From Thermococcus sp. 18S1 (lineage in GTDB: Archaea > Methanobacteriota_B > Thermococci > Thermococcales > Thermococcaceae), in NCBI RefSeq assembly GCF_012027645.1, contig NZ_SNUU01000001.1, positions 1,674,001 to 1,738,000 on the forward strand: a stretch of DNA of 64,000 nt. The letters are read 5' to 3'. Under the pieces are notes generated by a model, which saw only the letters and a list, made by a program, of their open reading frames with translations, ran no database searches and was not told where the DNA came from. Below, one piece after another: positions 12,006-15,363 of this stretch. Each line of letters begins with the position of its first letter. The stretch's first letter is position 1. A program made the position numbers and the translations under genes.

Positions 12006-12521
12006 ATGGGAGCGGAGGAACACAAGAGAACGGCTCCAAAGAAGTTTAAGTTCGCGGTCATAACGGTTAGCGACACCGCGAGCAGGGGTGAGAAGGAGGA
12101 TAAGAGCGGGAAGTTTCTCATCGAGGAGCTGGAGAAGGCTGGACATGAGAAGGTGTACTATGCGGTCGTTCCCGACGAGAAGATGGCTATAATCGGTGCC
12201 GTTGTCGAGGCCTTCAGAGCGGGGGCGGAGGTTGTGGTTACCTCCGGTGGAACGGGTATAGCCAGCAGGGATGTGACGATAGAGAGCATCAGGCCCCTCT
12301 TCGATAAGGAACTGACGGGCTTCGGGGAGATTTTCAGGCTTCTCAGCTACGAGGAGATAGGCACAGCCGCGGTCATGACGAGGGCAACCGCGGGGGTAAT
12401 CAGGAGCTCTGGCAGAACCATGGCCGTCTTCTGCCTGCCCGGCAGTCTCGGCGCGGCAAGGACAGGTATCAAAATCATCCTCAAAGAGGCCGGCCATGTA
12501 CTCAAACACGGGAGGGAGTGA
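12006..12521 (+). CDS. moaB: molybdenum cofactor biosynthesis protein MoaB
   Basis: This 171-aa MogA/MoaB-family protein shows the N-terminal FAVITVSDTASRGEKEDKSG segment, the TSGGTGIASRDVTIE loop and the C-terminal FCLPGSLGAARTG. In archaea MoaB adenylylates molybdopterin before molybdate or tungstate insertion by MoeA. The ATG at 12006 has GGTGGT upstream and a TATA-like GGTTATTAAG around 11967-11976. It is immediately followed by moeA, forming a two-gene operon. Confidence 0.93.
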   Translation: MGAEEHKRTAPKKFKFAVITVSDTASRGEKEDKSGKFLIEELEKAGHEKVYYAVVPDEKMAIIGAVVEAFRAGAEVVVTSGGTGIASRDVTIESIRPLFDKELTGFGEIFRLLSYEEIGTAAVMTRATAGVIRSSGRTMAVFCLPGSLGAARTGIKIILKEAGHVLKHGRE

Positions 12522-12522
12522 C

Positions 12523-13713
12523 GTGAGGGAGTTCAAACGGCTGACCCCGTATAAAGAGGCCCTTGAGATGGTGCTGAATGACGTCAGCGAGATCGGGGAC
12601 GTCGAGGAGGTTCCCCTCTCCGAGGCCCTTGGACGGGTTCTGGCTGAAGACATCGTTTCACCCATAGACAGCCCGCCCTTTGACCGTTCGGCCGTCGACG
12701 GCTATGCCCTCCTGGCCGAGGACACGTTCCCGGCGAGGGAGTACAGTCCGGTTGACCTCAGAGTCGTGGACGAGATAGTCGCCGGGGAGGAGAGCAAGGC
12801 GAGAGTTGAGCCCGGCACGGCTGTGAAGCTCATGACCGGCTCGAAGATGCCTGAGGGGGCCAACGCGGTTCTGATGCAGGAGATGGCCGAACGTGATGGG
12901 GACGTCATAAGGGTTCTCAGGCCGGTCGCCCCGGGTCAGAACGTGGCCTTCGCCGGCGAGGACGTGAGGAAGGGAGGGGTTGTCCTCCGAAAGGGACAGG
13001 TTTTAAGGCCCCAGGACCTGGCGCTCCTCAAGAGCATCGGCTTCAGGAGCGTAAAGGTCAAGAGGAAGCCCCGTGTCGGGATAATAATCACAGGCGACGA
13101 GCTCATCGAGGAGTTCGACGAAGACGCGCTGAAGGCCGGGAAGATTATGGAGAGCAACTCGGTCATGCTCACCGGACTGGTGCAGCAGTACTTCGGCGAG
13201 CCAGTTTTCTACGGCGTCGTTCCGGACGATGAGGGAGCTATTCGCTCGGCGATAGAACGGGCAAGGGGAGAGTGCGACCTCGTCCTTGTCACGGGCGGCT
13301 CCGCCTTTGGGGATAAGGACTTCGCCCACCGCTTCGTCAAGCTGCTCTTCCATGGCACAACGATAAAGCCCGGAAGGCCGGTGGGCTACGGCGAGAGGGT
13401 CTTCATCATGAGCGGTTATCCGGTAGCCGTCTTCGCCCAGTTCCACCTTTACGTTAAGCACGTCCTTGCGAAGCTGATTGGGGCCAGGAACTACGAGGTC
13501 AGGGTTCGGGCGAGGCTCAGCGAACGCGTTTCGAGCCAGCTTGGAAGGCACGAGTTCGTGAAGGTGTGGTACGAGAACGGAGAAGCCAGACCGATCAAGA
13601 AGAAGGGCAGCGGGATAATAAGCTCGCTCGTGGAGAGCAACGGGTATATCGAAATCCCCGAGGACAGCGAAGGGTATCTCGAGGGGGAGACCATCGAAGT
13701 GGTGCTGTACTGA
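12523..13713 (+). CDS. moeA: molybdopterin molybdenumtransferase MoeA
   Basis: This protein of about 396 aa matches MoeA throughout: a conserved N-terminal segment (LTPYKEALEMVL), SPIDSPPFDRSAVDGYALLA near residue 45, MTGSKMPEGANAVLMQE near residue 105, GIIITGDEL near residue 185, and VTGGSAFGDKDF near residue 262. It inserts molybdate or tungstate into adenylylated molybdopterin; Thermococcales mainly use tungsten. I prefer the GTG at 12523, 8 nt after GGAGGG. An in-frame ATG at 12496 inside moaB is the alternative. The gene is coupled to moaB. Confidence 0.94.
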   Translation: MREFKRLTPYKEALEMVLNDVSEIGDVEEVPLSEALGRVLAEDIVSPIDSPPFDRSAVDGYALLAEDTFPAREYSPVDLRVVDEIVAGEESKARVEPGTAVKLMTGSKMPEGANAVLMQEMAERDGDVIRVLRPVAPGQNVAFAGEDVRKGGVVLRKGQVLRPQDLALLKSIGFRSVKVKRKPRVGIIITGDELIEEFDEDALKAGKIMESNSVMLTGLVQQYFGEPVFYGVVPDDEGAIRSAIERARGECDLVLVTGGSAFGDKDFAHRFVKLLFHGTTIKPGRPVGYGERVFIMSGYPVAVFAQFHLYVKHVLAKLIGARNYEVRVRARLSERVSSQLGRHEFVKVWYENGEARPIKKKGSGIISSLVESNGYIEIPEDSEGYLEGETIEVVLY

Positions 13714-13719
13714 AAGCCC

Positions 13720-13944
13720 TCACTCTCCGATCAGCTCCTTTTTATCAGGTTTTTTTATTATGGGCTTGATTTCATCGGGGAGAACGTTTGGATCAACGAG
13801 GTTCTCCACTATCTCAAGGGCCTCACTGCGCTCCCTTTTCCGTTCTGCAATAACATCACTCAGGAAATTCGATTTTCCCCACGGGAGAACGTCTCTGATT
13901 TTTTCTTCCTCGTCGTCCCCGTGGTTTTTCTTCTGACCTGCCAC
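13720..13944 (-). CDS. small charged hypothetical protein
   Basis: This 74-aa protein is strongly charged, with helix-forming runs (FLSDVIAERKRERSEALEIVENL) and a basic/acidic mixture at both ends. A GTG start at 13944 follows GGGGGAT. I recognise no family. It converges on moeA with a 6-nt gap and is the only candidate gene before the non-coding RNA region. Confidence 0.55.
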   Translation of the reverse strand: MAGQKKNHGDDEEEKIRDVLPWGKSNFLSDVIAERKRERSEALEIVENLVDPNVLPDEIKPIIKKPDKKELIGE

Positions 13945-13989: not shown

Positions 13990-14223
13990 CCACGGAATGT
14001 TACGATGCTATGGCCCGCCCGTAACTCCCACCCTCATCGATGCCAGACGGCGAACTCAGGCGGGCTAACCCAGGCGGGCCGTCTGTGCCCGGTCTGGGTT
14101 TCCCGCGGCCATTGTGCTCCGTAACGCGGAAGGCCCTCCCGCGGGGACCTCGCTGTAAGACCGGGCTGTAGCCCCCGCATCGCACTCTGGTTCATTCATC
14201 CCCAGAGTCCTCGCGCGGGGGCC
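13990..14223 (-). ncRNA. structured G+C-rich RNA with H/ACA-like hairpins
   Basis: No coding sequence fits here, yet the DNA is far more G+C-rich than the flanking intergenic DNA and is full of perfect stems. Hairpin 1: 14215-14222 pairs with 14171-14178 (GCCCCCGC/GCGGGGGC), with upper stem ACUCUGG/CCAGAGU, a GGAUGAAUGAA loop like a kink-loop, and ACA one base after the stem. Hairpin 2: 14158-14166 pairs with 14087-14095 (GCCCGGUCU/AGACCGGGC), with upper stem CCCGCGG/CCGCGGG and ACA directly after. Hairpin 3: 14078-14085 pairs with 14044-14051. A fourth weak stem pairs 14020-14025 with 13999-14004. This is the layout of archaeal H/ACA guide RNAs, which direct pseudouridylation. The ends are estimates. 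Confidence 0.72.
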
Positions 14224-14259: not shown

Positions 14260-15363
14260 TCACTCTATCAGCTTCCGTAGCTGGAAGTAAAGCCTCGGTT
14301 CCAGGCTTTCCTTCTCCAGGACAACCACCAGGGTGCCGTTGTTCACAATGGTGAAGTCCCTCAGTTTTGAAATGAACTTCATGAGGCTATCCCATGAGTT
14401 GTACACAGTAAGATACTCAAAGCAGTCAATCACAATAATACCACGCTTTCCTGACCTGGCAAATGTCTCAAGGTACTGGTAGGAGATCTCGGTCATCCTA
14501 GCAAGGTTTGTGGGATTTATTGTGTTCTTGAACGTGCCCTGGAATGGTATGGTGGTCACGAAGTAGCACTCCCATCCCTCAGGTATATCCGAGACGTCTC
14601 TGACGAAGGCGAGCACGGGCATCTCGCGGAGTTTCTCTTTGAGTTTCTTGTATTCGTTTATTCCCACAAGGAGTGTGCCAGGTTTAAGATCTGGCTGCTG
14701 GGGAACCGCTTTTTTCGAGGGCAGAAACGTCTTGGATGACGTTAGCTTGACCATTGCCCATACCATGAAGACTATCAGCATTGATGAGAACGTGAAGCCT
14801 ATCGCTTCGTACCAAGGGTAAAGGCCAAAGAGGGCCGCTGGGATGAGGTGAACCCCAAACAGAATTATGCTGATGGATAGATATTTAATTGCACTTTTGT
14901 AAATCTCCTCAACTTCCATCAGCAACAGTCCACCCGCCACTACGAAGACACCACTTATCCCAAGCGCCGCTGCGGTCGTGGCCGTCCAGAAGGCATCTCC
15001 CGTGTAGGAGTACACACCAAGTATGTACACCATGAACGCGACGGGCATGACGGAAAGGATAGCAAGGGTTCTGTGTCTAGCGTTTATGGACTCCTCTTCA
15101 AGGAACTTCACGGAGCCATAGAAAATGAAGCCTGCAAACGTCGAGAGACACAGGAGACCCGCCAGCTGGATGGTAACGCTCTGCTGCATCGTAAAGAGGA
15201 TCGTTAGGAAATCGAATATCCACGCTATCGAGAACGCCAGGGCAGATTTCCTTCTGTTGCGCAGGTATATCTTGAATATCCACGTCGCGGCCACGGCGTC
15301 AGCAATCAGCACTAGTGCTGCCTCTACTAGCAGGAGTGCCTGGATGCCATCCAACAACCTCAC
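14260..15363 (-). CDS. DUF835 membrane protein
   Basis: This 367-aa protein has about seven membrane helices in residues 5-215, then a soluble DUF835 domain. The domain segments include GTLLVGINEYKKL, LAFVRDVSDIPEGWECYFVT and GIIVIDCFEYLTVYN. DUF835 is common in Thermococcales membrane proteins and resembles a RecA/KaiC-like fold without a nucleotide motif; its function is unknown. The GTG start at 15363 follows GATGAGGTGAGG. It lies 5 nt after the acyl-adenylating gene on the same strand, so the two form an operon. Confidence 0.8.
   Translation of the reverse strand: MRLLDGIQALLLVEAALVLIADAVAATWIFKIYLRNRRKSALAFSIAWIFDFLTILFTMQQSVTIQLAGLLCLSTFAGFIFYGSVKFLEEESINARHRTLAILSVMPVAFMVYILGVYSYTGDAFWTATTAAALGISGVFVVAGGLLLMEVEEIYKSAIKYLSISIILFGVHLIPAALFGLYPWYEAIGFTFSSMLIVFMVWAMVKLTSSKTFLPSKKAVPQQPDLKPGTLLVGINEYKKLKEKLREMPVLAFVRDVSDIPEGWECYFVTTIPFQGTFKNTINPTNLARMTEISYQYLETFARSGKRGIIVIDCFEYLTVYNSWDSLMKFISKLRDFTIVNNGTLVVVLEKESLEPRLYFQLRKLIE

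Follow-up and report, generated by a model that had tools for sequence, protein, structure and literature searches.

The window analysed here is the whole 64,000-nt stretch of the Thermococcus sp. 18S1 genome, and the feature of interest, an RNA gene at 14009–14222, lies on its minus strand. Upstream, on the same strand, is the gene of a DUF835 protein (14260–15363), the stop codon of which falls just before a TATA box. Directly downstream is a 74-aa ORF with a GTG start and no Pfam match (13720–13944, minus strand). MoeA-like and MoaB/MogA-like molybdopterin genes occupy 12496–13713 and 12006–12521 on the opposite (plus) strand.

The initial annotation had read the region as a Thermococcales H/ACA guide RNA with its own TATA box and had suggested an Rfam search, and the search bore this reading out. 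RF00064, the family of HgcG (Pab40, Pf7), gave the one match here in Rfam 15, at 14280–14004 on the minus strand; it scored 197.6 bits, above the curated gathering cut-off of 77, and spanned the whole model (positions 1–276). The segment 14009–14222 is thus almost certainly the local orthologue of HgcG, an archaeal H/ACA guide sRNA named Pab40 in P. abyssi and Pf7 in P. furiosus. HgcG and its family were known before, as were the build of three hairpins and the targets. What we add on the RNA at 14009–14222 itself is its homology, structure, conservation and pairing to the rRNA of the same strain.

A TATA box about 27 nt before a G had been noted on the minus strand, and the element TTTATATA (14253–14246) is indeed centred about 27 nt before G14223/14222. 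Most of the orthologues listed have a TATA-like element about as far upstream of the conserved GCCCC start. The RF00064 model starts 56–57 nt before the transcript and therefore includes promoter DNA. Our view of expression, like that of guide activity, is carried over from papers on relatives. The P. abyssi transcript (382,389–622) is 234 nt long and starts at the equivalent of 14222 (PMC4652768). The interval initially proposed for the RNA, 13990–14223, has the same length of 234 nt, but its 5′ end is shifted by 1 nt. By analogy with P. abyssi, a short 3′ tail likely extends to about 13986. HgcG, lying between the DUF835 gene and the small ORF, would be transcribed from a TATA promoter of its own.

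Three hairpins emerged from unsupervised minimum free energy (MFE) folding of 14222–14009; the z score was −4.7, and none of 200 shuffled sequences was as stable. Covariation, which had been proposed as a check in related genomes, was analyzed in an alignment of 31 non-redundant orthologues less than 93% identical to each other (A1). The 50 base pairs of the fold are formed in 97.2% of the alignment cells, and 23 of them show compensatory changes on both sides, compared with a mean of 11.6 in shuffled alignments, none of which (0/500) scored as high. When the partners were slid along the same alignment as a control, pairing fell to 34–55%. Both of the ACA-ending hairpins initially described are present. 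A third hairpin (14080–14009) falls within the coordinates first given and ends in an ANA box that had not been called. A composite of up to four hairpins, which had been considered unusual, is not what we find: three are predicted and conserved, the orthologues show no conservation past the third box (3′ of 14009), and three is the known organisation of Pf7/Pab40 (PMC2584109, PMC2241582).

The three hairpins share the hallmarks of the class. An ANA box (ACA, ACA and AUA, in order) directly follows each lower stem and lies 14 nt after the GA stem in every case, which agrees with the pocket-to-ACA spacing of 14–15 nt noted earlier when counted from the end of the 3′ pocket that adjoins the GA stem. 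Elements of an L7Ae site are present as a conserved UGA in the loop of hairpin 1, matching the L7Ae-type kink-loop (K-loop) predicted there, and, in the other two hairpins, as UGA facing GA. In strain 18S1, L7Ae would bind each hairpin at the K-loop or K-turn and Cbf5–Nop10–Gar1 at the stem and ANA box; the two-armed pocket would pair with 23S rRNA on either side of a U-N left unpaired, and Cbf5 would convert the U into pseudouridine. Binding of L7Ae, Cbf5, Nop10 and Gar1 and pseudouridine formation were demonstrated for Pab40 in vitro and are supported by T. kodakarensis mutants (PMC6138745).

For target assignment, every uridine of the strain's own 16S and 23S rRNA was scored against each pocket; 23S numbering takes the start of the Rfam LSU match as position 1, and equivalents were checked in P. 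abyssi 23S rRNA. The published pairs are Pa40.1–L2588, Pa40.2–L1932 and Pa40.3–L2016 (PMC4652768). With U2588, U1932 and U2016 all covered in papers, each of the three hairpins has a published guide function. The comparison of pockets with rRNA suggested at the outset recovers the published sites for hairpins 1 and 3, the guide arms of which vary little or not at all across 88 genomes, but does not do so for hairpin 2 by both arms. The order of the hairpins guiding P. abyssi U2588, U1932 and U2016 is preserved, with hairpin 2 fitting U1932 through its 3′ arm AACCC only.

Hairpin 1 (14167–14222), defined by pair counts, arm conservation in the 88 genomes and the target scan, combines the K-loop with an ACA box. 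Its 8-bp lower stem (14222–14215 with 14178–14171) is followed by a U and the ACA at 14169–14167, and its arms are GCGAGG (14214–14209) and GCGAU (14183–14179). The best of all rRNA uridines for this pocket, far ahead of the next, is 23S U2591 (UUGC-U-A-CCUCGC), with 4 + 6 pairs; only 1 of 400 shuffled guides performed as well. Hairpin 1 is therefore predicted, from pairing to the strain's own rRNA, to guide modification of U2591, the equivalent of P. abyssi U2588 in the peptidyl-transferase region. Pab40 guides modification of P. abyssi U2588 in vitro, and the equivalent Ψ2592 of T. kodakarensis requires Cbf5, Nop10 and Gar1 (PMC6138745). Three bases upstream of this target, Ψ2585 of P. abyssi (2589 in T. 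kodakarensis) had no known guide in 2018 (PMC6138745). We rejected hairpins 1 and 2 as candidates for guiding it, as inspection by eye revealed no register in which both arms are paired.

Hairpin 3 (14009–14080), assigned from pair counts, conservation and the target scan, contains a K-turn and the AUA box at 14011–14009. This box is ACA in 50 of the 88 genomes and AUA in the other 38. The lower stem is formed by 14080–14073 and 14019–14012 and the upper stem by 14064–14058 and 14033–14027, with arms UGGGUUA (14072–14066) and GUUAC (14025–14021). Its best site is 23S U2020 in helix 69 (GUAAC-U-A-UAACCC), where 5 + 6 = 11 contiguous pairs are formed and none of 400 shuffled guides is as good. 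Pairing to the strain's own rRNA thus predicts that hairpin 3 guides U2020, the equivalent of P. abyssi U2016, and Ψ2016 has been made in vitro with Pab40 and Afu-4 in work that also describes Pf7 as three hairpins (PMC2584109).

Hairpin 2 (14084–14166) is joined to hairpin 1 by the ACA box of the latter, with no spacer. Its 9-bp lower stem (14166–14158 with 14095–14087) is directly followed by its own ACA at 14086–14084. The pair counts in A1 and the MFE fold support an upper stem of 14145–14139 with 14108–14102 (CCCGCGG with CCGCGGG) and an apical helix UUCCG/CGGAG. K-turn-like GA elements complete the fold: the 3′ side, opposite GA, carries UGA in most genomes and UGG here, a minority variant found in 13 of the 88. 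In A1, 99.2% of the cells of this upper stem and apical helix are paired, with four compensated pairs. The inner fold given in RF00064, two small internal helices, was rejected, being paired in 72.4% of the cells and having no compensated pair. Across Thermococcales, the sequence comparison therefore supports a canonical K-turn H/ACA fold of hairpin 2 over the Rfam inner structure, a revision that looks new. In the published description of P. abyssi Pa40.2, the guide strand is unusually long, at 23 nt (PMC4652768), which we take to reflect an Rfam-like fold. The corrected fold of hairpin 2, with the compensatory changes behind it, is a useful by-product of the analysis.

The pocket of hairpin 2 is less easily matched to a target. 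As initially annotated, GCGAGG is present in the 5′ pocket strands of both hairpins 1 and 2. The targets containing CCUCGC that were predicted from it hold for hairpin 1, at U2591, but not for hairpin 2, which lacks a matching 3′ arm. In a search of the strain's own 16S and 23S rRNA, no site pairing with both arms of hairpin 2 beat shuffled guides (241/400 as good). The invariant 3′ arm AACCC (14100–14096) fits GGGUU before U1936, the equivalent of P. abyssi U1932, although the two-arm scan did not single this uridine out (five pairs, on one side only) and the 5′ arm does not fit U1932. Through the 3′ arm, hairpin 2 would most likely modify U1936. Pairing with U1932 via CCUCGGUA, which we infer to be the published one, was rejected as a general solution: the full 8-nt complement is present in P. 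abyssi only (1/88), and elsewhere 6–7 of the 8 positions match, with a mismatch beside the target.

Hairpin 2 nevertheless has a 5′ arm, AGCGAGGUCC (14145–14154), that is identical in 88 of 88 genomes, including the invariant core AGCGAGGU, and is as conserved as the proven guide arms. In strain 18S1, an overlapping segment, ACAGCGAGGU (14156–14147), is complementary without mismatch to the 10 nt of 23S 2592–2601, directly 3′ of the hairpin 1 target. This arm may thus not be, or not only be, a U1932 guide; by pairing with 23S 2592–2601 it could help load or hold pre-rRNA, through two-handed binding or chaperoning. We regard this as improbable, if not negligibly so. Its invariance speaks for such a role, as does the complement ACCUCGCUGU in 23S rRNA, given that 1.8% of shuffles of the hairpin 2 strand reach a 10-nt complement anywhere in rRNA; in addition, the 5′ duplex of hairpin 1 with U2588 has been described as barely beyond the productive limit (PMC4652768). 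However, hairpins 1 and 2 would then compete for the same bases, and the outermost bases, ACA ahead of the core, are not kept in every genome. Moreover, the GCGAGG common to both hairpins could be left over from a duplication of one hairpin, or could pair internally, as an alternative, with the near-invariant CCUUCCGC. The stronger version, in which the 5′ arm would give hairpin 2 a second, non-catalytic function by gripping the peptidyl-transferase strand 2592–2601, so that HgcG would double as a chaperone of rRNA folding, with a possible link to the pseudouridine without a guide at position 2585 of P. abyssi (2589 of T. kodakarensis), is a sequence-based conjecture to which we give slightly less weight still. 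Modification of U1936 through the 3′ arm remains our preferred reading. The conservation of AGCGAGGUCC together with its complementarity to 23S rRNA looks new and is offered as a lead rather than a finding: a strictly conserved arm, with no settled target, near a 23S pseudouridine that had no known guide in 2018.

Of 94 Thermococcales genomes, 88 have an RF00064 match above the cut-off, including all 74 near-complete ones, with one strong copy in each; in 14 control genomes there was no RF00064 match. In the genome that served as reference (G004), the match coordinates (382332–382604) are those published for P. abyssi Pab40. The 88-locus set used above was anchored on AGCGAGGTCC, which is present in each of the 88 loci found with Rfam. 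The HgcG family is thus universal in well-sequenced Thermococcales, and the present locus is a further orthologue of an already well-described guide RNA. Fifteen Thermococcales genomes contain weak second RF00064 matches, full-length and scoring 21–43 bits, which could be taken for HgcG paralogues in a multi-copy family. This is very improbable: five such loci that were tested score 67–140 bits to HgcE/Pab105 (RF00060) and are cross-hits, the weak matches align as a single family, and no second locus was seen to score higher to RF00064 than to RF00060. Least probable of all, to the point of being practically dismissed, is that the single-copy RNA at 14009–14222 is not functional, its GC-rich intergenic sequence folding by chance or encoding protein; 61-aa and 53-aa ORFs do overlap it on the same strand (14000–14185 and 14034–14195), but the Rfam match, covariation, conservation and the published transcript of the orthologue contradict this.

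Outside Thermococcales, a covariance model of the Thermococcales RNA was run on 19 other archaeal genomes, a set that did not include Archaeoglobus, and matched none of them convincingly. The sole marginal match (24.8 bits) is a multi-hairpin candidate in Ca. Pyrohabitans (L162:1501–1740), which has both a TATA box and ACA boxes. We rejected it as an HgcG orthologue; it is an H/ACA-looking guide candidate with different pockets, the third included. As no convincing match was found in these 19 archaea, likeness beyond Thermococcales seems to be confined to single motifs. Afu-4 of Archaeoglobus fulgidus and a motif of M. jannaschii are reported to be related to Pa40.3 and to target the same helix-69 uridine (PMC4652768); what they share with HgcG is this Pa40.3-like motif. 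HgcE/Pab105 is an H/ACA guide of the same class with weak cross-matches between RF00060 and RF00064, but it is encoded at another locus and forms a separate Rfam family. In contrast, the likeness of the 18S1 RNA to HgcG/Pab40/Pf7 extends over the full length and comprises the three hairpins, the boxes, the guide arms and the promoter position. Within this common framework, the K-loop of hairpin 1 and the spacers differ in sequence from those of P. abyssi HgcG, the inner pairing that RF00064 assigns to hairpin 2 fails here, and the third box is AUA rather than ACA.
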